Shown: positions 8,843-50,300, numbered from the stretch's first letter. The stretch is DNA of 64,000 nt from Bifidobacterium vansinderenii (GCF_002234915.1 NZ_NEWD01000007.1:1-64000); one strand, 5' to 3'. Notes: a model not told the origin generated them from the letters alone. Numbers and translations are program-made.

Positions 8843-9012
8843 CGGGTCGTGCATCTGCCGGGCCGGCCGTGAACCCCGTGGAACTATAGCCGTCGATAAC
8901 CGACATGCATGACGGGGTGGTTGACTTGGCGGCCTTGGCGGACCACAGTAGGGGATGGGTTTCGTATATTCCATCGGTATTCCGCCCATCGGGAATAGAA
9001 AAAGGAGTCATC

Positions 9013-34696: not shown

Positions 34697-34721
34697 TTGT
34701 TCCCGCACGCGGGCTCCTCTC

Positions 34722-34907: not shown

Positions 34908-34962
34908 GGGAACCATATTCGTTCATCTATCCATCACCCAGAGCTAGCAAAGGAGCTGACTC

Positions 34963-36297
34963 ATGCCTCTGGTCATCGTGGCCTGCGCCGTCGCGGTCCT
35001 CATCTTCCTTATCGTCAAACTCAAGCTCAACACGTTCGTCTCGCTGGTCATCGTCTCGTTCCTCACCGCGCTCGTACTGCAGATCCCGGTGGACAAGATC
35101 CCCACCACCATCGAGACCGGCATCGGCGGCCAGCTCGGCCACCTCGCCGTGATCTTCGGCTTCGGCTCCATGCTCGGTAAGCTCGTCTCCGACTCCGGCG
35201 GCGGCCACCGCATCGCCATGACGCTGATCAAGCGCTTCGGCCGCAAGCACATCCAGATCGCCGTGGTGCTCGCCTCGTTCATCGTGGGCATCGCCCTGTT
35301 CTTCGAGGTCGGCCTCGTGGTGCTGCTGCCGATCATCTTCGTGATCGCCCGCGAGCTCGACATGCCGCTCATGTTCCTCGGCATCCCCATGGCCATCACA
35401 CTCAACGTGGCGCACGCGTTCCTGCCGCCGCACCCCGCGCCCACCGCCATCACTTCCACGCTCGGCGCCAACATGGGCCACGTGCTGCTCTACGGCATCA
35501 TCGTCTCCATCCCCACCATCATCGTGGCCGGACCGCTGTTCAACTTGCTGCTGCACAAGTTCAGGCCCGACCTGTACCACACCGACGTCGAAGTGACCGC
35601 GCTCGGCGAGTTCAAGGAGTTCAAGGAGGAGGACACCCCCGGCTTCGGCATCTCCGTCGTCACCTCCATGATGCCGGTCATCCTCATCGCCGTGGCCACC
35701 ATCTGCTCGTTCGTGCTGCCCGAAGGCAACGTCGTCAACGAGGTGATCCAGTTCGTGGGTGCACCCGACGCCGCCATGCTGCTGTCCATGCTGTTCGCCG
35801 TGTGGACCATGGGCCTGGCCCGCAAGCGCACCATGGCCGACATCGCCGGTAGCATGACCGAATCCGTCAAGCAGATCGCCATGATGCTGCTCATCATCGG
35901 CGGTGGCGGTGCCTTCAAGCAGGTGCTCGTCGACGGCGGCATCTCCGACTACATCTCCACCATGTTCTCCAACATCAACATGCCGCCGCTGATCGCCGCC
36001 TGGCTCGTGGCCGCCGTGCTGCGCGTGTGCCTCGGCTCCGCCACGGTCGCCTCGCTCACCGCCGCCGGCCTGGTGGCTCCGATGGTCGCCATGTCCGGCG
36101 TGAATCCGGCGCTCATGGTGCTGGCCGTCGGTGCGGGCTCCGTGATCGCCGACCATGTGAACGACGCCGGCTTCTGGATGATCAAGGAGTACTTCGGCCT
36201 CTCGCTCAAGGAGACGTTCATGTCGTGGACGGCCGCCACCACCGTGATGTCGGTGATGGGCCTGATCTCCGTGCTCACGCTCTCCCTGTTCGTGTGA
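34963..36297 (+). CDS. GntP family permease (gluconate/sugar acid symporter)
   Basis: The 444-residue membrane protein has about 12-14 helices and GntP family signatures: GGGHRIAMTLIKRFGRKH, FFEVGLVVLLPIIF and FLPPHPAPTAI. It imports gluconate or related acids with protons. AAAGGAG lies 7 bases before the ATG. It may share LacI-type control with the SDR gene, though repeat B2 separates them. Its last 23 bp overlap the convergent DNA glycosylase gene. Confidence 0.92.
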   Translation: MPLVIVACAVAVLIFLIVKLKLNTFVSLVIVSFLTALVLQIPVDKIPTTIETGIGGQLGHLAVIFGFGSMLGKLVSDSGGGHRIAMTLIKRFGRKHIQIAVVLASFIVGIALFFEVGLVVLLPIIFVIARELDMPLMFLGIPMAITLNVAHAFLPPHPAPTAITSTLGANMGHVLLYGIIVSIPTIIVAGPLFNLLLHKFRPDLYHTDVEVTALGEFKEFKEEDTPGFGISVVTSMMPVILIAVATICSFVLPEGNVVNEVIQFVGAPDAAMLLSMLFAVWTMGLARKRTMADIAGSMTESVKQIAMMLLIIGGGGAFKQVLVDGGISDYISTMFSNINMPPLIAAWLVAAVLRVCLGSATVASLTAAGLVAPMVAMSGVNPALMVLAVGAGSVIADHVNDAGFWMIKEYFGLSLKETFMSWTAATTVMSVMGLISVLTLSLFV

Positions 36298-36823
36298 TCG
36301 CTTCGACGACCACCTGATATGCGGCTGTCAGATCTGGCAGCCGCATTCTTGCGTTCGCAGGGCTCGTGGACGGCAGGGGAGTCATGGGAACGTCGATGCC
36401 CGCGCTCGCAAGATGCGGCGCGCAAAGTCTTCGATACAGCTGTGCCGCCTTGCCTCCGGTCGTGAATACATGTGCGATGCGCGACGCTCGGATGATCGGT
36501 GCAAGATCGTTCGGCACGGCGTTGCGAATCGACGAATCACTGGCGCCCACGATGTCGCATTCGGCGATCACGTCCCACAACGCGAACCGATGATCCAATG
36601 CGAACTCACGTCGTGCCTCCGGTTCGGCGGCGGGCGTCGGCTCGTCGAACAGCGCGGCCATCACCGGCCAGAACCGGTTCTGCGGATGCATGTAGTAGAA
36701 CGACGCCTCGCGCGACTTCGGACTCGGCATCGAACCGAGGATCAGCACGCGCGAATCCGCATCCCACACCGGGCCGAACCCGTGGGTCACGTGGAGAAGG
36801 GGAGAACTTGGGTGCATGGCCAT
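36275..36823 (-). CDS. DNA-deoxyinosine glycosylase, uracil-DNA glycosylase superfamily
   Basis: The 182-residue protein matches UDG family 6 (hypoxanthine-DNA glycosylase). The N-terminal active-site region is LILGSMPSPKSREASFYYMHPQNRFW, shown here as LILGSMPSPKSREASF and YYMHPQNRFW. A central ALWDVIAECDIVGASDSSIRN follows, with a C-terminal LPSTSPANA loop that inserts into the minor groove. It probably excises deaminated bases. The gene overlaps the 3' end of the GntP gene by 23 bp in convergent orientation. Confidence 0.85.
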   Translation of the reverse strand: MAMHPSSPLLHVTHGFGPVWDADSRVLILGSMPSPKSREASFYYMHPQNRFWPVMAALFDEPTPAAEPEARREFALDHRFALWDVIAECDIVGASDSSIRNAVPNDLAPIIRASRIAHVFTTGGKAAQLYRRLCAPHLASAGIDVPMTPLPSTSPANARMRLPDLTAAYQVVVEAITRTGRA

Positions 36824-36839
36824 GGTGTCTAGCGTAATT

Positions 36840-36920
36840 GCGGTTCACAAATCGAAGAAACCTCGGGATGGGTGTTGAAAATCCGCGGCACGATTTCCAT
36901 ATCTTCGATTTGTGAACCGC
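36840..36920. repeat. 81-bp inverted-repeat element, copy 1
   Basis: GCGGTTCACAAATCGAAGA (36840-36858) is perfectly inverted at 36902-36920, leaving a 43-bp loop. It is one of two copies with identical arms and identical total length but different loops. Immediately upstream of the glycosylase gene start. No reading frame is evident. Confidence 0.85.
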
Positions 36921-37046
36921 TTCTTCTGAGGCGTCGTCCGCAAACGTTCCCTATTGGTGCTTTTTATTCGGATTCTTTCAAAAATTCCGAGGATATGTTC
37001 GATTCTGTGCGTGTTGTGGTTCTTGAATCTGAAGAATGGTGGAATT

Positions 37047-37127
37047 GCGGTTCACAAATCGAAGAAACCCGTAAAACGTGGTGATATTTCAACGGGATTG
37101 GTTGTATATCTTCGATTTGTGAACCGC
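37047..37127. repeat. 81-bp inverted-repeat element, copy 2
   Basis: The same 19-bp arms as copy 1 lie at 37047-37065 and 37109-37127, again with a 43-bp loop, here containing a nested CCCGT/ACGGG pair. The right arm touches the TAG stop of the PPOX-type gene on the minus strand, so it may act as its terminator. The 126 bp between copies are AT-rich and hold no gene. Confidence 0.85.
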
Positions 37128-37762
37128 TAATGGCGTTTATGAGGCTTGGCATGAATCTTCGCGGTGAATCGCGTCGACTCGATCTTCCATACCGCAACGC
37201 TCGCCGCCTGCTGCGGGGTGAACGGAATGTTCGCGGTGCCCATCTGCTGCTCCATGAGCAGCTGCAGACCGCGGATCTTCTCATCCACGTCGGTCACGAT
37301 GCTCGCCGTACCGTTGCCGATCACCGATTTGAACGCCTCGCCCCAATTGCACCAAGCGCGTCCCTCGATGATTTCCCGATCCGTGTTCATCTCGAACGCC
37401 ACCGGCAGCGCATTGCCTGCCGCCGTGATCGCATCATACTTGCGGCCCTCCGGCGCGGAATGCATATACAGGGTCAGCGTGCCGGCGAGGTCGCCGGTAT
37501 CTGCGGCGCCATCGGTATTGTCGGTGTCTCCGGCGTCGTATGCGAATCCGAAGTTCATCGGCACGATCGTCAGCCCCTCGGCGTCCACATACGACACGTG
37601 CACCACATCACAGTGCCGCACGATATCAAGCATCTGCTGGATATCGGTCACTTCACGGTCGGCGCGACGCATACGCCGATGCGCGCCGGCGATGGTCTTC
37701 TCATCATGGCGTTTGGCTGGCTTGTGCAGAGCCGCAAGATCCTCGGGACGTTCATCGGTCAT
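37127..37762 (-). CDS. pyridoxamine 5'-phosphate oxidase family protein
   Basis: The 211-residue protein has the flavin-binding split-barrel pattern of the PPOX-like/FMN-binding group related to NimA: MRRADREVTDIQQMLDIVRH, then HVSYVDAEGLTIVPMNFGFAY, TLYMHSAPEGRKYDAI and the late FTAKIHAKPHKRH. It probably binds FMN or heme; the reaction is unknown. ATG 37762 is chosen because the longer upstream frame reads antisense across an integrase relic. It is the last chromosomal gene before the integrated element. Confidence 0.85.
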   Translation of the reverse strand: MTDERPEDLAALHKPAKRHDEKTIAGAHRRMRRADREVTDIQQMLDIVRHCDVVHVSYVDAEGLTIVPMNFGFAYDAGDTDNTDGAADTGDLAGTLTLYMHSAPEGRKYDAITAAGNALPVAFEMNTDREIIEGRAWCNWGEAFKSVIGNGTASIVTDVDEKIRGLQLLMEQQMGTANIPFTPQQAASVAVWKIESTRFTAKIHAKPHKRH

Positions 37763-37870
37763 GATCGCCACTGTAGTCGCCGCGCGTAAAGGATGATGGC
37801 ATGATTCCGGGTGCCGGGCGATGGCCGATTCGACGGGCGACGCCTCGGAAGCGATTGGGCATATGGGGGC

Positions 37871-37993
37871 GTGGCCGTGACGCTGAACACGTACGCGGCC
37901 CTGTTCCCGAGCAGGCTGGATGATGTGGCGGACGCCTTGGAACGCAACCGCGCCGCCGCCATCGTGTCCCATCGTGTCCCGAAGCAGTCGTAG
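37871..37993 (+). pseudogene. 3' relic of a tyrosine integrase gene
   Basis: The 40 codons before the stop at 37991-37993 encode VAVTLNTYAALFPSRLDDVADAL and more, matching the C-terminus of the intact integrase at 44800-46101 (AAVTLNTYAALFPDRMDDVADAL), including the catalytic Tyr. It ends 13 bp before the 75-bp attL repeat, just as the intact gene ends before attR. Everything upstream of the Tyr motif is lost. This is the remnant of an earlier element at the same tRNA. Confidence 0.85.
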
Positions 37994-38006: not shown

Positions 38007-38081
38007 GCCCTTGGATCCTAATGTTTCCAAGGGCTGTGTGGTGACCCCGGCCGGGTTCGAACCGGCGACCTACAGATTAGA
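38007..38081. repeat. attL, 75-bp direct repeat
   Basis: Identical to 46103-46177. It contains the hairpin GCCCTTGGA/TCCAAGGGC and the 3' half of tRNA-Arg up to the anticodon region (ends GATTAGA). The sequences diverge immediately on both sides, which marks the recombined core. Confidence 0.95.
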
Positions 38082-38405
38082 TTCAAACCGTGTTGGCAGA
38101 TGCCGACTGACTGTAAAAGGTTGCAGCAGAAGGGGTATTTGCCTATTGAAGGGTATCGATTGGTTGCAACCTGGACTAGCTGATTACGGCAAAATGAGTA
38201 GTTCAGTGCGTCCCAATTGCGTCCAGCAGGGCAGCGGATCCGTGCCCGATGCCGGCGCTATCAAGATTGGCCGGCACCCTCTCACATAAAGTGTCCAAAG
38301 TGGCCGACATGGCCGAAGTGTCCAATGGCAGTGGATCCACAGCAGGTGCCTGCGCTACCGACATCAGCCAACCTCCGGTCCGACAGCGCTGCGGAACTGT
38401 ATGAT

Positions 38406-38494
38406 GAAAGCAATGAAGCGCCCTAGATTGACACCTCCTTTCAACACATGCGGTGACGCATGTGGGTGACATTCTAGGGCGCTTCATTGCTTTC
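38406..38494. other. nested hairpin with perfect 22-bp arms
   Basis: Arms 38406-38427 and 38473-38494 are perfectly complementary (beginning GAAAGCAATGAAGCG). The 45-base loop holds a second hairpin CACATGCG GTGA CGCATGTG with a GNRA-type loop. The left part of the loop reads CACCTCCTTTC, like the anti-Shine-Dalgarno tail of 16S rRNA. It lies downstream of the leftward capsid operon and may terminate it, be a processed RNA, or be a replication or packaging signal. The region 38082-38724 has no convincing gene; it also holds AAGTGTCCAA twice (38289, 38316), three GGTGACG motifs and a small hairpin CCCCGA/TCGGGG (38551-38565). Confidence 0.7.
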
Positions 38495-38724
38495 ACGGGA
38501 ATGGTGATCCCCGAAAAGAGCAAAGGCGCTCAACTGGGATACTCTCCGTACCCCGATCGTCGGGGTGACGCAACGGTGACGGTAACCGTAACGCTTATAA
38601 GGCTGGAAGCCAAGCGCGACAACGGTCTTAGCCGTGACATGTCACGGATACGAATCCTCGGGGAGATATCGGCCCTATGCCGGTGGTGGCCTTGAAGGCT
38701 AGGGGAGGGTGTATCCCCCTACCC

Positions 38725-38910
38725 CTATGCCACGTCCACGACGCGGTTGCCCTTCACGGTGTCGTACAGCAGCTGCGCCGGTGTCGGGGAATGTTCTCCT
38801 GCGCCGAAGAAGCTGCCGGTGTACAGGCCGAATGCCGAATCGTCCGCCAGTCTTTCGGCGATCTCCGTGTCCACGGTGGAGTCAGGCAGTCGGTCGGTCG
38901 TGCTGGCCAT
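38725..38910 (-). CDS. small hypothetical protein downstream of capsid
   Basis: The 61-residue acidic protein contains TEIAERLADDSAFGLYTGSF. It is not recognised. The start overlaps the upstream ORF by 29 bp and has AAGGA nine bases before the ATG. It is the last gene of the leftward operon. Position directly after the capsid gene would suit a decoration, scaffolding or head-completion role, which is speculation. Confidence 0.55.
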   Translation of the reverse strand: MASTTDRLPDSTVDTEIAERLADDSAFGLYTGSFFGAGEHSPTPAQLLYDTVKGNRVVDVA

Positions 38911-39109
38911 CGGAGTCGTCCTTGTCGTCGAGAAGGTGGTTGAGAGCTACCGCGCACAGGCAGTCCGAGATACGGCAGAGCGCTTCAAGGCGAATGAGTT
39001 CGCCTTCCGTGGCCAAGGTGTTGAACGCCTTGGCCCTGTTGAGCTTGGCGGTCATGTTGTCGCCCTGCATGGACTGGGGGAGGGCGAAGTCGTTTTCCGC
39101 AATGTTCAT
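38882..39109 (-). CDS. small hypothetical protein downstream of capsid
   Basis: The 75-residue protein (starting MNIAENDFALPQSMQGDN) is helical in character, with AFNTLATEGELIRLEALCRI and a charged C-terminus. AAAGGA lies seven bases before ATG 39109, preferred over ATG 39124. It follows the capsid stop by 11 bp, so it is co-transcribed. Not recognised. A scaffold or head protein is possible from position only. Confidence 0.6.
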   Translation of the reverse strand: MNIAENDFALPQSMQGDNMTAKLNRAKAFNTLATEGELIRLEALCRISDCLCAVALNHLLDDKDDSDGQHDRPTA

Positions 39110-39120
39110 GATTGGTCCTT

Positions 39121-39975
39121 TCACTCGTTGTCGGTGGTGTCGGTGGTGGTGATGATGGAGAGTCGGTTGGGGTGGACGACGCCGAAGCCGAAGCGGAACG
39201 TGCTGCGCATGAGCGTGATGTCACGCTCGAAGTACCTGTCCCTGCTGGCGTCGCCGGACACGCCGCCTGCGGCTGCGATGATCTCCCCCTTGTCGGTGAT
39301 GATGATCTTGTCGGCGGGGGCCTGCGCGTTGAGGGTTACGGGGATGCCGAACAGGACGGGGACGGGCGCGTTGGCGACGTCCGGGCTGATCTGCGGGGTG
39401 CCGTCCGCCAAGCGGAGTTTCAGCAGCTTGGCCCATGTGCCGTACCCCATGATGATGTGGGTCGGGGTGCCGCCGTTCTCGCTGATCTGGGTGATGCCGT
39501 CGATGATCGGGTTAAGTCCGTCGTTGCTGTCGGCGATGTTGCCGGCAACGGGGATGCCGGGATAGTTGAACAGTCCCGTCACGCCGGACGCGCCTTCGGC
39601 GGGCGCGGGATTCTGGAGGAACACGGCGTCGGCCTTGGCGATGATGCTACGTGCCATGCCTTTCCCGAGCATGGTTTTCACGCCTGCAGCGTAGTTGGCC
39701 TCATTGGTGATCGGGTTGATTACGGCGACCTTCTGCGTATGAATGGTCAGAACGCTGACAGCGGCGTTGCCTTCGGGGATTTCCTCGCCTTCCTTGACGA
39801 TCTGCGCTGCGGGGAGGGTTTCGACGTAGGGGACGTTGAGTACCGGAGTGTCGCCCTCGACCTGTCCGCCTGCGGTGGCGTGGGTGAGGATGAGCGCGTC
39901 CGGGATGATCGATTCGGCCTGAAAGTAGTTCGCGCTGTATACGCTTGGCGCGTTTCCTGTGGTGACTTCCGCCAT
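39121..39975 (-). CDS. phage major capsid protein, HK97 fold type
   Basis: The 284-residue protein resembles HK97-type major capsid proteins. The early VPYVETLPAAQIVKEGEEIP strand and E-loop-like stretch, the central GLFNYPGIPV, the IIMGYGTWAKLLKL segment and the final STFRFGFGVVHPNRLSI are the usual landmarks. It starts almost at the E-loop, with no N-terminal delta/scaffold domain, and no protease gene is adjacent. The RBS is GGAAAGAAGAA. An intrinsic terminator sits 35 bp upstream, so expression may need antitermination or a helper-phage signal. Encapsulin is less likely since the gene lies in an integrated element. Confidence 0.82.
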   Translation of the reverse strand: MAEVTTGNAPSVYSANYFQAESIIPDALILTHATAGGQVEGDTPVLNVPYVETLPAAQIVKEGEEIPEGNAAVSVLTIHTQKVAVINPITNEANYAAGVKTMLGKGMARSIIAKADAVFLQNPAPAEGASGVTGLFNYPGIPVAGNIADSNDGLNPIIDGITQISENGGTPTHIIMGYGTWAKLLKLRLADGTPQISPDVANAPVPVLFGIPVTLNAQAPADKIIITDKGEIIAAAGGVSGDASRDRYFERDITLMRSTFRFGFGVVHPNRLSIITTTDTTDNE

Positions 39976-40008
39976 GTTTTTTCTTCTTTCCGCGCCCTCA
40001 CGGGCTGC

Positions 40009-40069
40009 GAAAAAAGAGGAACGCAGTCGTCGGGCGCAATAGTCGTGTTGCGCCGTCCGGCTGCGTTCC
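40009..40069 (-). terminator. intrinsic terminator in the capsid gene leader
   Basis: On the minus strand, GGAACGCAG/CTGCGTTCC (40061-40069 with 40018-40026) and inner GGCGCAA/TTGCGCC form a long stem followed by TCTTTTTT (A-run 40010-40015 on plus). A second hairpin GCCC GTGA GGGC lies between it and the capsid RBS. The stem separates early genes from the capsid gene. Confidence 0.8.
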
Positions 40070-40114
40070 GTATAACCTTCAAACGAGACCGATCATTTGA
40101 ATGGCTTACAGGGG

Positions 40115-40294
40115 TTATTCTACACCCTGTCGTGTTTCCTCCCCTGATTGCTGTTGCTGTGCGAGGGTTTTCCAGTAGCGTTTCTCACGTCGGCGTCTGG
40201 CGGATTCCAAGGTGAGGGACTGGATTTGTCGTATGAGCTGCGCGCGGCTCATGTGCCGGTAGGGTTCCGGCTCATTGGCCCTGTCCGTGTCCAT
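40115..40294 (-). CDS. small hypothetical protein, 59 residues
   Basis: Reading MDTDRANEPEPYRHMSRAQL and continuing with a highly basic helix (LESARRRREKRYWKTLAQQQQ) to TAA at 40115. GGAGG lies 10 bases before the ATG. It overlaps the stop of the upstream ORF by 23 bp, in line with the coupled operon. Not recognised. The charge pattern could suit a nucleic-acid-binding role, but that is only suggestive. It is the last gene before the capsid leader terminator. Confidence 0.6.
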   Translation of the reverse strand: MDTDRANEPEPYRHMSRAQLIRQIQSLTLESARRRREKRYWKTLAQQQQSGEETRQGVE

Positions 40295-40454
40295 TCGGGG
40301 TGTCCTCCGTGAGTCTGTCGCCTATGCGGGTGAGCTGGTCGGCTATCCGGCACAATGCGTGCAGCATGTCGTCTCGCTGTCCGCCCTGTCCGAGTTCCGA
40401 TAGGTATCGGTCCTCGAGGGACTTGTGTTTGGTGCGTGTTCGTCGTCTCGGCAC
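40272..40454 (-). CDS. small hypothetical protein, 60 residues, GTG start
   Basis: From GTG 40454 the protein has a basic N-terminus (VPRRRTRTKHKS) and a helix DDMLHALCRIADQLTRIGDR with heptad-like spacing. AGGAG lies seven bases before the GTG. The frame overlaps the 3' part of the neighbouring ORF in another frame. The helix composition looks genuine; function is unknown. Confidence 0.5.
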   Translation of the reverse strand: MPRRRTRTKHKSLEDRYLSELGQGGQRDDMLHALCRIADQLTRIGDRLTEDTPNGHGQGQ

Positions 40455-40594
40455 TGGCTGTCTCCTTGCTGTTGTTGCTTGGCCTTCTGGTAGGCGCGTA
40501 TGAATGGCGTGGGGTGCTTCCATGGCTTGCCGTGGTGGGCTGCCTGTCGTTGGCTGAGTGCCTGCTCGGCCGGGGGGATCCGTACCACGCTCAT
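40343..40594 (-). CDS. small hypothetical protein, 83 residues
   Basis: It starts at ATG 40594 in an ATGA overlap with the HTH gene upstream. The first 45 residues (MSVVRIPPAEQALSQRQAAH, then PWKHPTPFIRAYQKAKQQQQ) look protein-like; the remainder is low complexity and overlaps the 60-residue ORF in another frame. The tail may be non-conserved. Not recognised. Confidence 0.45.
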   Translation of the reverse strand: MSVVRIPPAEQALSQRQAAHHGKPWKHPTPFIRAYQKAKQQQQGDSQCRDDEHAPNTSPSRTDTYRNSDRADSETTCCTHCAG

Positions 40595-41289
40595 TCGGCC
40601 CCCGTCGTGGACATGGTGGGCTGCTGGATCCGCGCGCCGGGGTAGCGGCGGCGTATGGTGCGGACGACGGACGCCATGTCCAGAAGCCATGAATGCAGTC
40701 CCATGACGTTCCCGGCCAAGCGTTCCAGATCATCGGGGGATGTCACCTGAATGTCGTCCGTCTCCAGAGTGAAGTCGATCAGCTGGTCGTCCCTCCCGTC
40801 AGTGGCGATGCTTGCGACGAAGCCGAGTCCGAAGAGAGGGGCCTTCCCCGTGTACAGCAGGGTGTACGAGTTGTCCATGTCGTCCGGCCTGCCGTCCGTC
40901 CATTCCTCGAGCCTGCCGGGCCTGTATTCCGGTATGGGTTCCCGTTCGCATTCTGCGACGAACTCGGCGAACGGCATGTTGAACGCCTTGGCGAACCGGT
41001 CCATGTCCTCGATGTTGACGGAACAGTTCGCGTCGAGGATCCGGTCAAGCAGTTCGGGGTGGATCCCCGAATGGTCGGCCAGATCATCGCGTGTCCAGTC
41101 GCGCTCGTTGGCGAGTCGGGCCACGACGTCCAGAATGGCGTCGTCCCCGGCGTTGCTGCTGCGTGGTGGCATGTTGTGTTCGACGGTGAGCGTCGGCGTG
41201 GCTGCGGTGGGCGTGGCCTGCACGCCTTCTGCGGCGTCGGACGGTTCGGACTGTTTGGCCGGTTTGGACGCTTGGTGTGTGAGGGTCAT
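40591..41289 (-). CDS. HTH domain protein (XRE-like) of the element
   Basis: The 232-residue protein has a disordered Ala/Thr/Pro-rich N-terminus and a lambda-repressor-like HTH at about 60-120 (RDWTRDDLADHSGIHPELLD, then FAKAFNMPFAEFVAECE). The C-terminal region of about 100 residues is unassigned. It may regulate the element or take part in replication control. ATG 41289 overlaps the upstream stop (ATGA) and AAGGAG precedes it. Alternative upstream starts read through the other frame of the neighbour and are rejected. Confidence 0.65.
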   Translation of the reverse strand: MTLTHQASKPAKQSEPSDAAEGVQATPTAATPTLTVEHNMPPRSSNAGDDAILDVVARLANERDWTRDDLADHSGIHPELLDRILDANCSVNIEDMDRFAKAFNMPFAEFVAECEREPIPEYRPGRLEEWTDGRPDDMDNSYTLLYTGKAPLFGLGFVASIATDGRDDQLIDFTLETDDIQVTSPDDLERLAGNVMGLHSWLLDMASVVRTIRRRYPGARIQQPTMSTTGAE

Positions 41290-41543
41290 TTCGTGTACTC
41301 CTTGGGGTTGTTGCTGGTTGCGATGATGTGGGCGAGTCTGGTGAGGCTGGCGCCGGTCACTGCCGCGTCGTCGGGCATGGCGGGCAGTTGCAGGGTGATG
41401 GTGTTTGGATTCCCGGTCATGATCGCCTGCGCGCACTCCGCGAGGATCCGCGCTGCCAAGAGTCGGGCTTGCAGGCGTGGCGCGTCGAGGTCCGGTTGGG
41501 CGCGGATGTCCAGAGTCGGCGGGTAGGTCTTCGGTGCGCTCAC
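41286..41543 (-). CDS. small hypothetical protein, 85 residues, GTG start
   Basis: GTG 41543 overlaps the TGA of the upstream gene (GTGA). The protein (MSAPKTYPPTLDIRAQPDLD, then helices RLQARLLAARILAECAQAIM and TGASLTRLAHIIATSNN) looks well formed. GGAG lies six bases before the start. Not recognised. Tight coupling on both sides supports a genuine operon gene. Confidence 0.6.
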   Translation of the reverse strand: MSAPKTYPPTLDIRAQPDLDAPRLQARLLAARILAECAQAIMTGNPNTITLQLPAMPDDAAVTGASLTRLAHIIATSNNPKEYTK

Positions 41544-41785
41544 GTCGTCTCCATTCCCTCGAGTGGCGGTTGGATCCAATGGCGTGGCCGGCGTGGCGGG
41601 GGAGTGTCGGGCAGTTGCAGTGAGTCCAAGAGAAGCGCCGTCTCGCACAGGGGGCAGCTCTCCCACGGTCCCGACTGCTTGGCCTGCCGTGTGGCGGTGT
41701 GGTCCGAGTACATGGTCAGTCCGCACAGGGTACGGACGGTCACATGATCGGACATGGTGTAGGTGCGGTGGATGATGCATGTCAT
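41540..41785 (-). CDS. small Cys-containing hypothetical protein
   Basis: The 81-residue protein has VRTLCGLTMYSDHTATRQ and ESCPLCETALLL. The Cys/His pairs could bind zinc, as in short actinobacteriophage proteins of the TCGxT...CPxC kind. The RBS is weak. It is the first gene to the left of the iteron region. Confidence 0.55.
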   Translation of the reverse strand: MTCIIHRTYTMSDHVTVRTLCGLTMYSDHTATRQAKQSGPWESCPLCETALLLDSLQLPDTPPPRRPRHWIQPPLEGMETT

Positions 41786-41830
41786 GGTGTCGTCTCGCTT
41801 CGTTTTCTCCGATGTATTGCGTCTATCTGG

Positions 41831-42215
41831 TGCCTACACTGCCTACACGTTGGAATCATTGGGTTCCGGGTACCTACATTGCGGTGCCTACTGGTGCCTG
41901 CAACTGCCTACATCGTGGCGTCGTGTAGGCAGTCGTAGGCAGTTGTGGGCAGTCCCGTGTAGGCAGTCGAAAGCGTTGCGGCAGTAGGTGTAGGCACTGT
42001 AGGCACCTATTTTCCGCGTTCCCTTTCGGGGGAGAGTGAGTAGAACGTGCCGCCTGTCGGTCTTCCCGAGGAAGGGGTGTAACTTGTGTAACTGTGTAAC
42101 TATCCCCGACTGAGGCAAAGTTACAGAGTTACACAAGTTACACGGTTCCGGAAAGCGGGAGTGATACTTTCGACCACTCCGGAAAGTTACAGAGTTACAC
42201 AAGTTACACGGTTCC
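41831..42215. other. candidate replication origin with two iteron families
   Basis: Family 1: TGCCTACAC at 41831, 41840, 41905 (with variants at 41871, 41885, 41895), then the inverse GTGTAGGCA at 41923, 41957, 41988 and variants at 41934, 41943, 41997. The arrays face each other. Family 2: GTGTAAC at 42077, 42086, 42094, then GTTACAC/G at 42120, 42128, 42137, 42186, 42194, 42203, inside a perfect 33-bp direct repeat (42117-42149 and 42183-42215). It lies directly after the RepA-type gene, as in satellites whose initiator binds adjacent iterons. No gene lies in 41786-42228. Confidence 0.75.
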
Positions 42216-42228
42216 AGAAGGGGGGCTG

Positions 42229-43329
42229 TCACTCTGCCGGTATCGGCTCATAGACACCCCGTTTCCGCTGGCGGATCCGTCCCGCATCCAAGGCCCTGCG
42301 CAGGTAAAGACGCGCCTTGCCGTCATCGATGCCGAGCGTGGCGGCGACATCCTTGGGCGAAACGCCCTCGGAGTGATCGTTCACGACGCGGATCACTTCG
42401 GCCATCATGTCGCCCACTGGCGAGGTCTGCCGGTACTCCCTAGCAGCCTCCGCGGCCTTCTCGAGACTGTCGCCGCACAGGGTCCATAAGCCGTTCTCCC
42501 CGAATTCCAGCAGGTAGTCACCCTCCGCGCCGTCCCTCGAGGTCACCTGAAGCGTTCCCTTGGACTCGCCACGCTTGCGGTCAAGCTTCAGGATCGCGTC
42601 GGCGGCGCCGGCCACGCCGTTCGTTCCCGACACGCTGTCGAGGAAGTCGCCCGACTCCGCCTTGCGGGTATGATGCACCACTATCATGGTCGCGCCGTCA
42701 CAGTCGGCCACCATCTCCTGAAGATCGCCCAGAAGCCGGTAGTCGCGCTCGTAGTCGGTCTCCCCTCCGCGCTTGGGGGAGAGCACCTTGTATTTGCCGA
42801 GCGTGTCCAGAATTATCAGTGGCTGCTTGTCGCGGTTGCTGCGGAGGAACTGGCCCACCACTTCGGTCAGGCTCATGTTTTCCGGGATCCTCACAGTGAA
42901 CTCGAGGTTGTCCGGAACTCCCTTGTCTGTCACTCCCAGTGAGTGAAGACGATTCTGCAAGCGTCGGAAACCGTCCTCGAGTGCCAAGTACAGTACCGGC
43001 CGTTCGTCCACCTTGATGGCGCCGAACGCATATCCTCCGATCGCTGCCGTGTACGCCAAGTGCAGCGACAGCCATGACTTGCCGATCTTGGGTGCTGCCA
43101 CGAGCAGCACAAGGCCTGTCTGGATCACACCTGTCACCAATTCCTTTACCGGGGGAAATTTCATCATCATCAGTTCCGAAGCCTTGCATGACTCCTGCTT
43201 GAGGAAGTCCCTGATATCCTTCTGGGTCATTGCGTTCTCCGCCACGTCAGACGTGGTGAAGATATTTTCCGATGGTTCATCGCGTTGCTTCTGATCCGTC
43301 ATCATCCTGTGGTCGAATGTCACTGTCAT
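42229..43329 (-). CDS. AAA ATPase of the RepA/DnaB helicase type, probable replication initiator
   Basis: The 366-residue protein has a RecA-fold core: Walker A APKIGKS (79-85), Walker B LIILDTLGK and the sensor VVHHTRK. This is the hexameric RepA/RSF1010 helicase group used by plasmids and phages. A C-terminal winged helix (about 318-360, GVSPKDVAATLGIDDGKARL) may bind the iterons. It overlaps the upstream gene by ATGA and ends 14 bp before the iteron region. It most likely drives replication of the excised element. Confidence 0.85.
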   Translation of the reverse strand: MTVTFDHRMMTDQKQRDEPSENIFTTSDVAENAMTQKDIRDFLKQESCKASELMMMKFPPVKELVTGVIQTGLVLLVAAPKIGKSWLSLHLAYTAAIGGYAFGAIKVDERPVLYLALEDGFRRLQNRLHSLGVTDKGVPDNLEFTVRIPENMSLTEVVGQFLRSNRDKQPLIILDTLGKYKVLSPKRGGETDYERDYRLLGDLQEMVADCDGATMIVVHHTRKAESGDFLDSVSGTNGVAGAADAILKLDRKRGESKGTLQVTSRDGAEGDYLLEFGENGLWTLCGDSLEKAAEAAREYRQTSPVGDMMAEVIRVVNDHSEGVSPKDVAATLGIDDGKARLYLRRALDAGRIRQRKRGVYEPIPAE

Positions 43330-43532
43330 AGCGTGGTCCTTACGTTCAGTGGCTCATAGGGGTGTCCCGCTGCGGTGCGGGGGATGCCGTCTCCCCGGTA
43401 CCAACCGCGTAGTGGGGGTGCGCCGTGCAGCAGCTCGGCTTCGTACTGGCGGCGCGCGTTCAAATATTCGTGGAAGTGGATGGCGCCGGGCGTTTCGTAG
43501 AGCGCCCTGAGCGCCTGCGTGATGTCCGTCAT
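43326..43532 (-). CDS. small hypothetical protein, 68 residues
   Basis: It contains ALRALYETPGAIHFHEYLNA and a proline/glycine-rich C-terminus. Its start is 4 bp after the stop of the upstream gene and its stop overlaps the ATPase start by 4 bp, so it is an operon member. Not recognised. Confidence 0.6.
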   Translation of the reverse strand: MTDITQALRALYETPGAIHFHEYLNARRQYEAELLHGAPPLRGWYRGDGIPRTAAGHPYEPLNVRTTL

Positions 43533-43536
43533 GGGT

Positions 43537-43845
43537 CTAGCCTTCGTCGGCCTTCATCTGCCTGTGGTCGGCGTTGTGGACTAGCCACGCGCACCACATG
43601 GCGGTCGCCTGTTCGGGGTCCAAGCGGATCTCGCCTGCGGTCAGTCCCTCGCCCTGAGTGATGAGCATTCCCCCGTCATCGAGCATGGTGACGTGCAGGG
43701 GACGCCATGGGCGGGCGTGGTTCACGAGGTCGAGCGTGTCCGTGTAGACTGGATCCTGATTCAGGGCTTGAGTATGTACCGAATCATTCTTATTGGGCGT
43801 CTGGGGTGCTGCAACACTCCGGGCGCCGTTCTTCTTCCTGTTCAT
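43537..43845 (-). CDS. small hypothetical protein, 102 residues
   Basis: The protein has a basic, disordered N-terminus and an ordered C-terminal half (RPLHVTMLDDGGMLITQGEG, then LDPEQATAMWCAWLVHNADH). AAGGAGG precedes it. ATG 43845 shares one base with the upstream TGA (TGATG). A GTG at 43848 is also in frame. Not recognised; probably an accessory of the replication module. Confidence 0.6.
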   Translation of the reverse strand: MNRKKNGARSVAAPQTPNKNDSVHTQALNQDPVYTDTLDLVNHARPWRPLHVTMLDDGGMLITQGEGLTAGEIRLDPEQATAMWCAWLVHNADHRQMKADEG

Positions 43846-44102
43846 CACTGGTTGCCCTCCTTGGCTTCGGCGGTGCTGGTGTAGGTGTTCCTAGAGATGA
43901 AGTCCAAGACGTCGGACTTCTTGTAGCGGACCACGCGGCCCATCTTCACGAACGGGATACCACGGCCCTCGCTGCGCCAGAACGCGAGCGTGCTGGTCGG
44001 GATCCCCGTCGTGTTGAACACCTGCTGCGGACTGTTCAACGGATCCAGCTGCGCGGCGATGGCGTCCAAGTCAGACGACGGGGTGACGGTCGGCATAGAC
44101 AT
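43845..44102 (-). CDS. AlpA/excisionase-like helix-turn-helix protein
   Basis: The 85-residue protein has the MerR/AlpA-type HTH: VFNTTGIPTSTLAFWRSEGR, then IPFVKMGRVVRYKKSDVLDF. Such proteins act as excisionases or activators in phages and satellites. AAAGGAG lies six bases before the ATG. It is the first gene of the leftward operon, transcribed from the operator region shared with the XRE repressor. In PICIs AlpA-like proteins control excision; the role here is inferred. Confidence 0.8.
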   Translation of the reverse strand: MSMPTVTPSSDLDAIAAQLDPLNSPQQVFNTTGIPTSTLAFWRSEGRGIPFVKMGRVVRYKKSDVLDFISRNTYTSTAEAKEGNQ

Positions 44103-44124
44103 AACAACTCCTTTGGCTGTCCTT

Positions 44125-44192
44125 ATGTTGACTACTTAGTCAACATTGCAATACTGAATATATTCTTATGTTGACATATGTGTCAACATAAG
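44125..44192. promoter_or_regulatory. two palindromic operators and leftward promoter of the element
   Basis: Operator 1 is a 22-bp palindrome, ATGTTGACTA CT TAGTCAACAT (44125-44146). Operator 2 has 12-bp arms CTTATGTTGACA (44165-44176) and TGTCAACATAAG (44181-44192). Both share ATGTTGAC, centres 43 bp apart. A leftward promoter has -35 TTGACA (44186-44181, in operator 2) and -10 TATATT (44162-44157), 18 bp apart. The XRE repressor gene starts at 44243. Confidence 0.85.
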
Positions 44193-44242
44193 AGTGTCGA
44201 GTTGTTTATAGTTCAGTCGAGATTTCGACATACGCTTTCCAT

Positions 44243-44764
44243 ATGAATGAAGATCTGACGATAGGTCAAAACGTCAAACGCTTGCGTGGTGGAGTCTCCC
44301 AAGAGGAACTAGCGAAAAGGATGCGGGAGAAGGGATTCGACTTCACGAAAATGACTGTCTACAACATCGAACGCGGTAGACGGCAACTCCGGTTGTCAGA
44401 AGCAAGGGCAATGCTCGATATCCTCGGATACAACAAGCAGCAGGACATGGACGAACTGTTTGTGGATGGAGTTGACTCAAAAGTTCATGAAGCTATCAGA
44501 GATTTAAAAGTTGCCGTGAGCGATGCAGCGTCATCATGCCGGGATGTTTATACCTGCCGGATGGCGGCGGAATATCTTTTGGCCCCCTCTACCTATTCGT
44601 ACGTTGATCCAGACGGGAATGTCGTAGAAGAGCCTGCGCCATCTGATGAAGCTATCGCGTTGTTGAAAAAAGTCGTTGCGGAGACCGAAGTAAATGCGTT
44701 ATCCCGTAAGTTATCAACAATTTTGGCGACTGGCGATGATGCCTTTTCAGAAGAAGAAAAATGA
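44243..44764 (+). CDS. XRE family repressor of the element
   Basis: The 173-residue protein has an N-terminal XRE HTH (LTIGQNVKRLRGGVSQEELA, then MTVYNIERGRRQLRLSEARA) and a helical C-terminal domain. It is divergent from the AlpA-like gene, with two palindromic operators between, the usual layout of a CI-like switch. No canonical RBS precedes the ATG, so the message may be leaderless. GC content is lower than in the core genome. No LexA-type peptidase motif is seen, so release is not by self-cleavage. Confidence 0.82.
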   Translation: MNEDLTIGQNVKRLRGGVSQEELAKRMREKGFDFTKMTVYNIERGRRQLRLSEARAMLDILGYNKQQDMDELFVDGVDSKVHEAIRDLKVAVSDAASSCRDVYTCRMAAEYLLAPSTYSYVDPDGNVVEEPAPSDEAIALLKKVVAETEVNALSRKLSTILATGDDAFSEEEK

Positions 44765-44799
44765 GTGGCTGCTCGAGCACTGGTGAATGGTGATGTGTG

Positions 44800-46101
44800 A
44801 TGGCTAAGGCGTGGATAGTTGACCGATGGCTGAGGAAGGACGCGCCGGCAAGCGTGAAACGCCGGCTCAACGCCAGTCGTGATCCCCTCAAGGCCAAGAT
44901 TCCCGACCAATACAAGAGCGCCCGATACGGGCAGGGCAGTCGATGGTCTGTCCAATGGTTCGAAACCGACGCGAACGGCAAACGCAGGAAGGCAGGCAGA
45001 AGCGTCGAAACCAGAGCAGAGGCCGAACAGCTCGTAACGCGGATCTCCGCCGACCAACTCACCGGGCAGTACGTCACGGTCGAGAACCGCAACCGGCCCT
45101 ATGGCGACGTCTGGCGGGAATGGTTCAACGCCCAACACCATGTGAAGGATCGGACGGGCAACCGGTACGAAGACGACTACGACAGGTACGTGAAACCACG
45201 ATGGGCGAACGTCCGGATAGGATCCATCGACGCCGTGGCGATAAACGCATGGGTGGGGCAGCTGCGCGACGGTACCGCCGTGCACGACTTCAAGACCAAG
45301 CATTCCAAGAAGCCGAGGAAGCCGAAACCACTGTCCGCAAGCTCTATCAAGGGCATAGTCACGGTCGCGTTCGGCGCCACGCTCGGCTACGCGGCCAAAC
45401 GACGAATCATCCCCTTCAATCCCATGGACGGGGTGAGCCTGCCCAAGGACAACGAGCCGGACGACCCCGTGTACCTGCGCTACGAGGAAGTCGAGGACTT
45501 GGCCGGCGTATGCGACTCCCGGAACGCCCTGATAATCCGAATGCTGGCGTACACGGGGCTGAGGCCCAACGAGCTGTTTTCCCTGCATATCGACGCCTTG
45601 GACTTCGAACGCCGGCGTATCCGAGTGGTGCGTAACTTCACCGAAGACAGGAAGGGGCACATAGTCGAGGGGTCGCCGAAGACGTGGGAGACTCGCACGG
45701 TCGCCATGCCCGAATTCCTGATCGACGATCTACGCGCCCAGTGCGACGGCCGGCCACTGGAAGCCTACGTGTTCACGTCGCCCAGAGGCAGGGCGGTGAA
45801 TCTGGCGAACTGGCGCAACCGGGAGTGGAAGAAGATCGTTCTCGGATCCGGCGTGGAAGTCGAGGGACTGACCATCTACTCGCTGCGTCACACGTACGCG
45901 AGTCTGGCGATAGCGGCCGGCTGCGACGTGAAGACGCTGCAGAAGGCCATGGGCCACAAGGACGCGGCTGTGACGCTGAACACGTATGCGGCCCTGTTCC
46001 CGGATCGCATGGATGATGTGGCGGACGCGTTGGCGAAGGCGAGGGCATTGGCGTTGAGTGCGTCCGATGGCGTCCATATGGTCGAATACCCGGTACGGTA
46101 A
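44800..46101 (+). CDS. int: tyrosine recombinase/integrase
   Basis: The 433-residue integrase of the element has an AP2-like arm-binding N-terminus, SAM-like core-binding domain and catalytic domain with Arg in YTGLRPNELF, His-x-x-Arg in SLRHTYASL, and the Tyr nucleophile in VTLNTYAALFP. It integrates at the 3' end of tRNA-Arg. The stop lies 1 bp before attR. The ATG at 44800 follows a GTG at 44797 that could also serve. A C-terminal relic of a related enzyme lies outside attL. Confidence 0.94.
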   Translation: MAKAWIVDRWLRKDAPASVKRRLNASRDPLKAKIPDQYKSARYGQGSRWSVQWFETDANGKRRKAGRSVETRAEAEQLVTRISADQLTGQYVTVENRNRPYGDVWREWFNAQHHVKDRTGNRYEDDYDRYVKPRWANVRIGSIDAVAINAWVGQLRDGTAVHDFKTKHSKKPRKPKPLSASSIKGIVTVAFGATLGYAAKRRIIPFNPMDGVSLPKDNEPDDPVYLRYEEVEDLAGVCDSRNALIIRMLAYTGLRPNELFSLHIDALDFERRRIRVVRNFTEDRKGHIVEGSPKTWETRTVAMPEFLIDDLRAQCDGRPLEAYVFTSPRGRAVNLANWRNREWKKIVLGSGVEVEGLTIYSLRHTYASLAIAAGCDVKTLQKAMGHKDAAVTLNTYAALFPDRMDDVADALAKARALALSASDGVHMVEYPVR

Positions 46102-46102
46102 G

Positions 46103-46177
46103 GCCCTTGGATCCTAATGTTTCCAAGGGCTGTGTGGTGACCCCGGCCGGGTTCGAACCGGCGACCTACAGATTAGA
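46103..46177. repeat. attR, 75-bp direct repeat
   Basis: Identical to 38007-38081. It includes the tRNA 3' half through the anticodon region and a hairpin GCCCTTGGA/TCCAAGGGC (46103-46130) that terminates tRNA transcription. The tRNA is complete on this side. Confidence 0.95.
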
Positions 46178-46211
46178 AGTCAGTTGCTCTATCCAACTGA
46201 GCTACGGGGCC
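46135..46211 (-). tRNA. tRNA-Arg (anticodon TCT)
   Basis: The minus-strand sequence folds as a cloverleaf. Acceptor GGCCCCG pairs with CGGGGTC (one G-U), D arm is GCTCAGTTGGATAGAGC, anticodon arm ACTGA CTTCTAA TCTGT, T arm GCCGG TTCGAAC CCGGC, discriminator A and encoded CCA. It reads AGA codons. The anticodon stem has a T-T mismatch at its central pair. The 3' half comes from the integrated element. Confidence 0.93.
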
Positions 46212-46508
46212 GAAAAGCAACGAGAAGCCATTGTAGCAACCTCATGCCATTTTCGCCATGACGTGAGTCACACAGATCGCGGGATTTTGCAAAACCCGGG
46301 CAACAGGATTCCTTCAGGCTCGTTCCGTCCTACGATGATGGATGCGTATCCAACCCCCTCATCGCTCGGAGGACGCCTGTTAGCGTAGGCCAATTAACGC
46401 AGGCCAATCGGCACAGGGGGTGTGAGCGATGCGCGGGAAGTGGATAGTATTGTAGGTTGGCGTCGCGAGCCGGGTCGGCCACGACGACGTAGAGGGAAGG
46501 GTGATGAT

Positions 46509-47183
46509 ATGCAGCTGAACATGCTGGCCAGCTTGACCACGGAGCCGGCGGGAACTCCCGTCGAGCCTGTCACCGGACAGATCGTGCCGCAGAACGGCGT
46601 GACCAGCGACATCGTCTACGTGATGTTCCACGGTTACGGCAACGACGAGCATGAGATGGTCCGCATCATCACCGCAGTGGACCCCGGCTGCGACTACATC
46701 TCCGTGCAGGGCCCCATCCATCGCCAGTATCTCGGCGGTCACGCCTGGTACAACAGCACCGACTGGGATGATGCGCAGATCCAGTCGCAGTGCTCCGCCA
46801 TCGGCGATCAGGTCGTTGGCATGCTCGACTCGTCGGCGCTCAAGGGCCGTCGCAAGGTACTCGTCGGTTTCTCTCAGGGCGGATACCTCGCATACCGAAT
46901 TCTCGCCGACCATCCCGATATGTTCGCCGCGGCCGTGCTGTTCGCCCCGTCGTTCCACGACGCGCAGGTGCGATTCGTTGAACCGACCCGTCGCCCCAAG
47001 GTGTTCCTCGGCTACGGCAGCCTCGACCAGCAGATCCCCGAGGAGCAGAAGTCCTCGATCCGCGCGTCGCTCGCCACGTTCGCCAACGTGGAGGAGCGTG
47101 CCTACCTCGGCATGCGTCACGACGTGTGCGATGCCGAACTCACCGACGTCTACCGTTTCCTCCAGTCGCTGCCGCGTATCTGA
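46509..47183 (+). CDS. alpha/beta hydrolase, phospholipase/carboxylesterase family
   Basis: The 224-residue serine hydrolase has the oxyanion region VMFHGYGNDEHEM, nucleophile elbow GFSQGG, Asp in GSLDQQIP and late His in LGMRHDVCD. It resembles the dienelactone-hydrolase-like carboxylesterase group. ATG 46509 is used, with GGAAGGG upstream. It is probably a soluble esterase with unknown substrate. The gap 46212-46508 holds the tRNA promoter on the minus strand and two GCGTAGGCCAA/ACGCAGGCCAA-like repeats. Confidence 0.85.
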   Translation: MQLNMLASLTTEPAGTPVEPVTGQIVPQNGVTSDIVYVMFHGYGNDEHEMVRIITAVDPGCDYISVQGPIHRQYLGGHAWYNSTDWDDAQIQSQCSAIGDQVVGMLDSSALKGRRKVLVGFSQGGYLAYRILADHPDMFAAAVLFAPSFHDAQVRFVEPTRRPKVFLGYGSLDQQIPEEQKSSIRASLATFANVEERAYLGMRHDVCDAELTDVYRFLQSLPRI

Positions 47184-47330
47184 CCGTCGCGTATCCCGTC
47201 ACTCGTGGCGTATGCCACCGTCGTATGCCACCGTCGCCCATCGTTCGCGACACGTCGGCGTCAGCGGCACCGATATGGTCGGGTTGATATGGTCGGGAGG
47301 GATGGGACGAACTGACCGGAGGACGCGCAT

Positions 47331-50300
47331 ATGAACTGGCGATCGGACGTATACGGACGTGGTGCCGGCGGCTCCGGCAGTTTCGGCAGTTTCGGCGGCA
47401 GTCTGAGTGACGATGACGGATACTACGACGACGGATACGACGATTACGCCGCGAACATCGACGGTATGAATGCCGCCGCCGACGCGGATTCCCCCGCCTA
47501 CGGCCATCAGGCCGACGCCATTCCCGAATACGAGCTGCGCAGCCTCGGCGGCACCGCCTTCTACCGCGCCTACGACGTCATCACCAGCGGGCGCATGCAC
47601 AGCCTCCGCTGCGAAGTTGACGCCGACGGCGACACCGTGATCTCCGCCCTCGTCCACAGCAACGCCAGCGGTCGCGACGACTACGCCACGCACGCCACCA
47701 TCGACGAAACCACTCACGAACTGGTCGACTCCTTCTGCACGTGCCCCGCCTACGGCGTCTACAGCACAACATGCAAGCACGTGATCGCGCTGATCATGCA
47801 ATACAACGACCATCCCCAGGCGTTCGCGCAGATCGGCGACCCCACGCAGGCGAAAACGCATCACACCTCGCGCCTGCTGCAGCTCTACATGCGCCAACGA
47901 GAACACGAAACGGCGATGCACGCGCATGAACAGCGACTGAACCTGCTCAAACAGGTCAGCGCGCTCGCCGAATCCAACGGGGACATGGCGGGAACGGACG
48001 ATTCGGCGGGCACTACCGACATGTCCGGCGTCAGCCGTCGCATGCCCATCGGCAGCGTGAGCCTGACCCCGTGTCTGCACCCGTCCAACGACGGATGGCG
48101 GCTGAAACTGCGGATCCGCGTGCCCCGCAACGGCATCGAATACACGGTGAAGAACATCCGTGCCACATTGAACGCCATCCAGAACGGCGACTACTTCTAC
48201 TACGGTAAGAGACTCGGATTCGTGCACACGCGCGACTCGTTCGACGAACGCTCCCGGCGACTGATCGACGTGCTCACGCAGGCGCTTGCCATTCGTGCCG
48301 CGTTGGGCGTCCACGAATCGTATGACGGCTATTATCGGCGCAAGCCCGTGCTGAACGAGATGGAACTGATCGCCGACGAGGTCGTCGAACTGTTGGACGT
48401 CTATCTCGATTCGGGGGAGTGCATCGACTACGTTCCCGTCGGGTCGCCCTCCGCGACGTCCACTTCCGCGTCCGTCGTCTCTTCGTCGTTCCGCGAGGCG
48501 GTTCCAGTCGCAGTGATCGACGGCGATCCCGACCCGGGCATCACCGTGCGTGAGGATGACTCCGGCGACGGCTACGTGATCGACCACACCACGTATTTCG
48601 ATCTGCTGGTCGAAGGGCGAAACACTGCCTACGTCGTTGTGCGGCAGACCGCCGAAACCCGTCGCCCGGTGTTCCGCAAGTGCAGCGCGCAGTTCGTCAA
48701 GGATTTCGACATGCTGTCGATCCTGTGCAATGACGCCGATCGCGGACTGTTCCTCAACCGCGACGATCTGGACATGTTCAGCCGAACCATCCTGCCGTAT
48801 CTGGGCACGAACGTGACCGTGAACGAGGACGGCACGACCTCCACGCACGGCATTCCCGCCGAGCTGCCGAGCGATCTGCTGCGACGCAAACGTCTGCCCT
48901 GCGTGATCGAAACCTATCTGGACCGTGACCGCGACGGCATCAGCTGCGACGTGCAGGCTCGGTACGGCGACCAGCGGTTCCACGTGTTCGCCGGCATCGC
49001 GCCCGGCGACGTGACGCGTGACCCCGACGTTGAACGGCTGGCCGTGGAGGCCATACGGCACTACTTCCCGCAGCCCGACGACGTGGTGGCGCGCATCCCC
49101 GAATCCGACGATGACGCCATCTACCGGCTGCTTACCGAGGGGCTGCCGGTGCTGCGCGGGCTCGGCGAGGTGTTCTCCACGCCCGCGTTCGACGGCCTTA
49201 CCGACGCGCCGCGGCCGACGATCCGCGTCGGCCTGTCCGTTGCATCCGATCTGGTGCGCATATCGCCCATTGCCGACGAGATCGATCCCAAGGACGTGCC
49301 GGCGCTGCTGAACAGCTATCGGTGCAAACAGCGTTTCCACCGTCTGTCCAACGGTGCGTTCGTAGACATGCGCGATGTGGACGCCAGCGCGATCGACGAA
49401 GTCGCCGCCGATCTGGGGGTGTCCGCCGCGAGCCTGGACGCCGGAACATTGGAGGTGCCCGCCTACGAGGCGTATTACCTCGATCATCAGGTCGACGACG
49501 CCGACAAGAGCGCGAGCTTCACGGCGTATCTGGACGGTCTGCGCGTGATCGACCCGGCCATGTATACGGTTCCCGCGTCGCTCGCCGACGTGCTGCGGCC
49601 GTATCAGGTGGAAGGGTTCCGATGGCTGAACGCGGTGTGCGACAAGGGATTCGGCGGGATTCTCGCCGACGAGATGGGTCTGGGCAAGACCGTGCAGATG
49701 CTGTCGCTGCTCGTGGCGCGACGGGAGCGGGGGAGTGCCGGCGAGGCCGATGATGCCGGTGCGGGGACTGGCGACGCGGGTGATGCCGGCTTCGGCAATG
49801 CCGCCGCCGGCAACGCCAATACCCATCCCAGTCTGATCGTCTGCCCGGCGTCACTGGTCTACAACTGGCTTGCCGAATGCGGCAAATTCGCGCCCGGACT
49901 GCGTGCGGCGGCGGTCGCAGGTACCAAGGCCGCGCGCCGGTCGATGATCGAGGCGGCCAAACGCGGCGACTACGACGTGATCATCACGTCGTACGATCTG
50001 CTGCGCCGTGACGTCGCCGACTACGACGGGCTCGACTTCGACGTCATGGCGCTCGACGAGGCGCAGTACGTGAAAAACCACGCCACCAAGGCGTCTCGCG
50101 CGGTACGGTCGATCCACGCGCGGCATCGGTTCGCGCTCACCGGCACGCCGATCGAGAACCGGCTGAGCGAACTGTGGAGCATCTTCGACTTCCTCATGCC
50201 CGGCATGCTCGGCTCGTACGCGCACTTCCGCGAACGGTTCGAAATGCCCATCCTTGCGGGCGACGAGAACGCGCAGGCCAAGCTGCAGGCGTTCGTCGGA

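Follow-up and report, generated by a model that had tools for sequence, protein, structure and literature searches.

An 8-kb tRNA-integrated element of Bifidobacterium vansinderenii belongs to a conserved family of candidate phage satellites with their own capsid gene

Introduction

Why would an integrated element of about 8 kb keep a phage capsid gene when no terminase, portal, protease, or tail gene can be recognized beside it? The question is raised by positions 38007-46177 of the window, the whole 64,000-nucleotide stretch of the Bifidobacterium vansinderenii genome analyzed here (GCF_002234915.1, NZ_NEWD01000007.1:1-64000). An earlier sequence-only reading had proposed a reduced satellite that makes its own shell or alters the shell of a helper phage. 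Following up this proposal with profile searches, comparative genomics, and structure modeling, we found that the element belongs to a family of elements of similar size and the same layout, and we give a probability of roughly 55% to the reading, drawn by analogy, that it is a phage satellite resembling the phage-inducible chromosomal islands (PICIs), which would build its own small shell and borrow the portal, motor, and tail.

Results

The element is bounded by two 75-bp direct repeats (38007-38081 and 46103-46177), 100% identical and 8096 bp apart, as expected of the perfect attachment (att) repeats described earlier. A tRNA-Arg (TCT) gene lies at 46135-46211 on the minus strand and is overlapped by the right repeat, which therefore covers its 3′ half; the left repeat contains the 3′ 43 nt of the tRNA. 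The 3′ half of a tRNA gene is the usual target of tyrosine integrases. In the sister genome G153 the site is empty, with the window flanks 34001-37817 and 46101-49741 mapping almost side by side in L114 (positions 8013 and 7893) and an intact tRNA-Arg at the junction. Among the nine genomes searched in the host genus, a capsid match was found in the window genome only. The orphan 3′ end of a related integrase gene, a remnant of an earlier element, lies directly left of the left att repeat (about 37811-37993), and another orphan integrase 3′ end stands beside the same tRNA-Arg in G160, showing that this site has been used repeatedly.

Gene content was assigned by searching the open reading frames (ORFs) of the element against Pfam, PHROGs, and NCBIfam. 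The gene at 39121-39975 (minus strand) encodes a 284-amino-acid (aa) major capsid protein of the HK97 fold (PF05065, E=9e-18; TIGR01554, E=3e-19), in agreement with the HK97-type capsid gene of the sequence-only reading. No terminase, portal, protease, or tail family was recognized in the ORFs of the element, as that reading had also stated, and the remaining small ORFs tested showed no recognizable phage function in the same searches. The portal, terminase, and tail of any particle would have to come from elsewhere.

A capsid search across 189 Bifidobacteriaceae genomes, in which about 20 kb around each match was examined, found relatives in 28 genomes, the window genome counted. The intact capsids number 24 (window counted), from 22 genomes and five genera of the family, and the elements that carry them share one gene order, with the integrase and repressor on one strand and AlpA, Rep, small ORFs, and the capsid gene on the other. 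The sequence-only reading had suggested looking for its gene order at tRNA-Arg in other bifidobacteria; most of the 24 elements are flanked by direct repeats, which overlap a tRNA gene, and many different tRNA genes are used (Gly, Val, Phe, Lys, Leu, Arg, Ala, and Pro), besides other sites. Named hosts include Bifidobacterium pseudolongum, B. simiiventris, B. magnum, B. cuniculi, Alloscardovia macacae, and A. criceti, and more distantly Gordonia. Across the elements whose two ends are defined (n=20), size is 8241 ± 548 bp. Pfam searches of 202 other ORFs from 26 related loci gave no match to a terminase, portal, protease, or tail family; for terminase and portal this absence in relatives rests on Pfam, where any hidden single hit has E above 0.0037 because the lists are ordered by member number and then by E-value, and the PHROG tallies show 25 of 59-80 families. 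HNH endonucleases occur in a few relatives.

The capsid gene is not quite alone within this family. A scaffold profile built from 12 genes lying upstream of the capsid gene also matches the gene in that position in L045, L049, and L052 (E 4e-19 to 3e-15) and, more weakly, in L041, L042, and L044, and the gene upstream of the capsid matches the profile in 18 of the 24 elements. The same profile matches the gene before the capsid in L060 (E=9e-6), a full prophage with terminase and portal, and PHROGs identifies that gene as a head scaffolding protein (E=9e-13). A scaffold-type gene beside the capsid in three-quarters of the elements (18/24) suggests autonomous shell building. The other six elements (the window, L032, L033, L034, L036, and L038) have a conserved ORF of 57-66 aa in this position, which in L036 and L038 is the end of a longer frame and which may be a reduced scaffold. 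In the window it is a 59-aa ORF directly upstream of the capsid gene (40115-40294, minus strand), without a PHROG match. An 80-aa acidic ORF lies downstream of the capsid gene (38882-39124, minus strand), with no family match and with a similar ORF after the capsid in L033; L032 and L036 have an additional scaffold-like gene downstream (PHROG 9857, E 3e-9 and 9e-12). The earlier description of a lone capsid gene with two small ORFs was imprecise: there is a single capsid gene, and the upstream ORF belongs to a conserved capsid operon in which a scaffold is normally paired with the capsid, and such an operon suggests that the element builds its own small shell.

Among the sequences compared, the capsids form a lineage of their own. 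In a FastTree phylogeny, the 24 element capsids and five from similar elements in Mycobacterium-like genomes and Gordonia make up one clade (support 0.86), and the 31 Bifidobacteriaceae prophage capsids in the sample all fall outside it; the joint alignment of the 24 element capsids was too variable for pattern scanning. Searched with tblastn against 50,697 phage genomes, the window capsid matched nothing at E≤1e-3 (best E=0.1), and in a control the capsid of a resident prophage matched 990 phage records. Three of four divergent element capsids had no phage match either, and the fourth (L073) had one, at 27% identity. No close relatives of the window capsid were found in phages, plasmids, or IMG/VR, the alignment query against the latter giving matches of 24-25% only, and no close capsid homologue was found among resident or sampled prophages or the 50,697 phages, although unsampled helper phages may hold closer relatives. 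Judged by these comparisons, the capsid lineage is separate from the sampled bifidobacterial prophage capsids.

This separation bears on the alternative that the helper's shell takes up the capsid homologue (e.g., as pentamers) and is made smaller by it, the satellite then being packaged inside. The single capsid gene and the lack of a full-size scaffold in the window element fit such a role, for which PICI-like islands offer precedents in Ccm of SaPIbov5 with phage phi12 (PMC8569155) and in the capsid homologue of PmCI172 (PMC6092414). However, Ccm is homologous to the helper capsid protein and co-assembles with it (PMC8569155), whereas element capsids and sampled prophage capsids fall into separate clades here, the window capsid has no phage match at the threshold used, and most relatives carry a scaffold-type gene beside the capsid gene, and we consider this alternative, the main rival, less likely than a self-made shell.

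The window protein aligns to the HK97 capsid model only from position 147 on (TIGR01554 match 147-383), indicating that it has no N-terminal delta domain, the built-in scaffold of HK97, and a separate scaffold is therefore expected to be needed. Its AlphaFold2 model has the HK97 fold (predicted local distance difference test 86, predicted template modeling score 0.84), with VIA-align Z scores of 19.4 to HK97, 19.4 to EcCI2, the capsid of a capsid-forming PICI (cf-PICI), and 17.9 to encapsulins. A delta-less shell that holds no element DNA and serves as a compartment, or as a decoy that poisons helper assembly, would suit a model nearly as close to encapsulins as to HK97 and an element with no packaging gene, but the sequence matches in Pfam, PHROGs, and NCBIfam are to phage capsid families only, no cargo gene was recognized, and the adjacent scaffold-type gene, together with the HNH gene of some relatives, points to phage morphogenesis, making this use of the shell improbable.

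Where it can be measured, the capsid gene is under purifying selection, with a nonsynonymous to synonymous substitution ratio (dN/dS) of 0.07 in the closest pair, L047/L048 (dN 0.076, dS 1.03). The explanation that a full phage shed its other late genes and left the capsid gene as a relic can draw on the small size of the element, on a bifidobacterial prophage survey that treated elements below 13 kb as remnants (size mode 9.9 kb; PMC8705816), and on truly decayed copies among the related loci (L046, L056, L057, and L058), but it is largely refuted, and we reject it as very improbable, because the same minimal gene set and narrow size recur in 24 elements of five genera and the capsid is conserved, under purifying selection, and of a lineage distinct from the sampled bifidobacterial prophage capsids. 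Full structural modules or a broken capsid gene in relatives, which the sequence-only reading had set against its own proposal, were the opposite of what we found (0 of 202 ORFs matched and 24 capsids are intact), and its choice of a reduced satellite over a decayed prophage is well supported by the intact relatives and the selection on the capsid.

The rest of the element has the regulatory and replication genes that the sequence-only reading had named, now borne out by profile matches. On the plus strand lie a tyrosine integrase (44797-46101; PF00589, E=6e-22) and an XRE-type repressor (44243-44764; HTH_31, E=1e-7); divergent from the repressor, on the minus strand, is an AlpA/Xis-type helix-turn-helix (HTH) protein (43845-44102; HTH_17, E=2e-5; PHROG 66, excisionase, E=4e-6). 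The two palindromes reported between the divergent regulators are present and operator-like, at 44122-44146 and 44165-44189 within 44122-44189 (TGTTGAC...GTCAACA). Rep is a RepA-type AAA_25 ATPase with a C-terminal winged helix (42229-43329, minus strand; AAA_25, E=2e-22), and the iterons noted beside it correspond to repeats of a GTAGGCA type and a AAAGTTACAGAGTTACACAAGTTACAC type at 41829-42225, directly 3′ of rep. These repeats are a probable replication origin, and the most repeat-rich stretch lies near the rep 3′ end in about 16 of the 24 elements.

The other ORFs of the element are all on the minus strand: a 103-aa ORF of unassigned function (43537-43848), a 68-aa ORF with a similar ORF in two other loci (43326-43532), an 81-aa ORF conserved in five other loci (41540-41785), a small ORF of unassigned function whose longest frame reaches 41780 (41286-41543), a second XRE-type HTH protein (40591-41289; assigned by Pfam, PHROGs, and NCBIfam) whose ORF reaches 41436 and whose true start is uncertain, and a small ORF, also of uncertain start (40272-40733), whose C-terminal part (SLEDRYLSELG...) resembles, by eye, small ORFs in L035 and L051. 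A 31-bp inverted repeat (38405-38495; 94% complementary, with a 29-nt spacer that holds its own small palindrome), located where the element has no genes, is a possible packaging, origin, or terminator structure; a second copy was not found in the window genome, and as a single-copy sequence it was rejected as a dispersed repeat. Outside the element, a segment with 19-bp inverted repeats (GCGGTTCACAAATCGAAGA) occurs twice, at 36836-36921 and 37043-37128, and is found in the same place in G153 (L114) too.

Several related loci have features of their own. At the att end of L035 (8236-8853; PHROG 8643, E=3e-61), L040 (8174-8797), and L056 (7219-7833), a zinc-finger and primase-polymerase-like gene lies downstream of the capsid gene, and in L071 a partial second copy of the 5′ part of the capsid gene (10663-10998) lies directly upstream of the full gene. 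The 8140-bp contig of L053 begins and ends in the att core of a single element, both ends having the same tRNA-derived sequence, which could reflect an excised circle or a break in the assembly at att. The 8684-bp contig of L059 has 127-bp identical ends and a 543-aa ORF with a capsid match besides other phage-like genes, and is possibly a circular molecule or an assembly artifact. L072, in a Mycobacterium-like genome, has between its att repeats and downstream of its capsid gene a 978-aa gene (6374-9310) that matches both tape-measure (E=3e-24) and endolysin (E=3e-42) proteins. In two loci outside Bifidobacteriaceae, L073 (7895-8452) and L086 (10858-11331), the capsid gene is immediately followed by a gene for a head-tail adaptor (PHROG 1290), suggesting stepwise reduction.

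Discussion

By analogy with PICIs, from which we infer helper dependence, induction, excision, shell building, and the choice of borrowed parts, the XRE repressor would hold the element silent in the chromosome until a helper phage lifts repression. AlpA/Xis and the integrase would then excise the element at the tRNA-Arg site, and Rep would replicate it from the repeats 3′ of rep. Expression of the element's capsid protein, with a possibly reduced scaffold, would yield a small shell, and the helper's portal, terminase, and tail would finish the particle in which the 8.1-kb DNA is packaged. The narrow size distribution of the elements is consistent with a fixed container. The HK97 capsid has a triangulation number (T) of 7 and holds about 40 kb. 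Scaling from HK97 gives, as an estimate only, ~11 kb at T=3 and 17 kb at T=4, enough for one genome per T=3 shell or two per T=4 shell.

Several points weigh against this reading. The entry of a helper portal into a shell of an unrelated capsid lineage is presumed. In a short-word blastn search of the three resident prophage regions for shared cos-like DNA, all matches were of 14-22 bp, as chance would give, and a shared cos site is therefore neither supported nor excluded. The window element has no full-size scaffold upstream of its capsid gene, and the 57-66-aa ORF, inferred to be a reduced scaffold, resembles the scaffold segment 'LS.EAA.YR' only weakly (hhalign probability 27%, P=7e-4). 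In favor of the reading, on the other hand, terminase, portal, and capsid genes occur together in two late-gene modules of the same genome, C20 and C56, putative helper sources at most; C12 holds a third terminase gene. Decay has also reached four of the related loci, as described above.

The kind of element is already known, as actinobacterial islands with an integrase and a major capsid gene, including phiRv1/phiRv2, have been reported from Mycobacterium and put forward as candidate PICIs (PMC10654092). These are likewise small integrated elements with an integrase, a replication gene, and an HK97-type capsid, some of them at tRNA genes and some with a scaffold or terminase (PMC10654092), and the window element has the combination by which they were defined, integration machinery and a major capsid gene in a region that does not correspond to any known phage. 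Capsids of similar elements from Mycobacterium-like genomes and Gordonia cluster with the bifidobacterial ones, and phiRv1/phiRv2 are likened to them by description. The bifidobacterial elements differ in their Bifidobacteriaceae hosts, in having no recognized terminase, protease, or connector, and in a size held tightly at 8 kb.

With cf-PICIs, the window element shares a capsid of its own of the HK97 type (see the Z score to EcCI2 above), but cf-PICIs also have genes for a protease, a portal, connectors, HNH, and the two subunits of terminase (PMC10690885), whereas no protease, portal, connector, TerS, or TerL was recognized here and HNH is only occasional in relatives. The cos PICIs such as SaPIbov5, a Staphylococcus aureus pathogenicity island (SaPI), are alike in having their own capsid-protein homologue, Ccm, in place of a full head module; the bifidobacterial capsid differs in belonging to a lineage apart and in being accompanied, in most elements, by a scaffold. 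The sequence-only reading had held that capsid-forming islands have fuller head modules, as cf-PICIs do, but islands that carry a capsid gene without a full head module are already known in Mycobacterium (PMC10654092), in SaPIbov5 (Ccm, PMC8569155), and in PmCI172 (PMC6092414). The order of integrase, repressor divergent from xis/AlpA, and rep is that of Gram-positive PICIs and SaPIs, as is the position of the repeats, since the origin of these islands, made of iterons, lies directly 3′ of rep (PMC6092414). Gram-positive PICIs are further characterized by att sites that prophages never use and by helper phages that induce and package them (PMC6092414); the att site of the window element had an earlier occupant with a related integrase. 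Classical Gram-positive PICIs, however, are defined by the absence of phage structural genes and measure about 15 kb (PMC6092414), in contrast to about 8 kb, a capsid gene, and, in relatives, scaffold genes in the bifidobacterial elements. We found no description in the papers searched of the Bifidobacteriaceae family, of its capsid-plus-scaffold-only content, or of its capsid lineage, although the primary papers on SatelliteFinder and cf-PICIs might mention bifidobacterial islands.

A wider version of the proposed satellite reading, which we put forward tentatively and at somewhat less than even odds, is that satellites of bifidobacteria and of related actinobacteria share a satellite-only lineage of capsid plus scaffold and make their own small shells (e.g., T=3 or T=4), taking portal, motor, and tail from helpers with unrelated capsids, and that in the subclade of the window the scaffold has shrunk to about 60 residues.

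A conserved family of 8-kb satellites, if this is what these elements are, would change the reading of such elements as remnants in a genus important in the gut and would imply helper phages yet to be identified. A module of capsid plus scaffold only would be a minimal point between satellites that steal shells (SaPIs) and those that make them (cf-PICIs), and it opens to testing whether the portal and motor of a phage with an unrelated capsid can be fitted to the shell of a satellite. The element matters, too, for its shell gene, whose lineage was not found in the more than 50,000 virus genomes searched with the window capsid.

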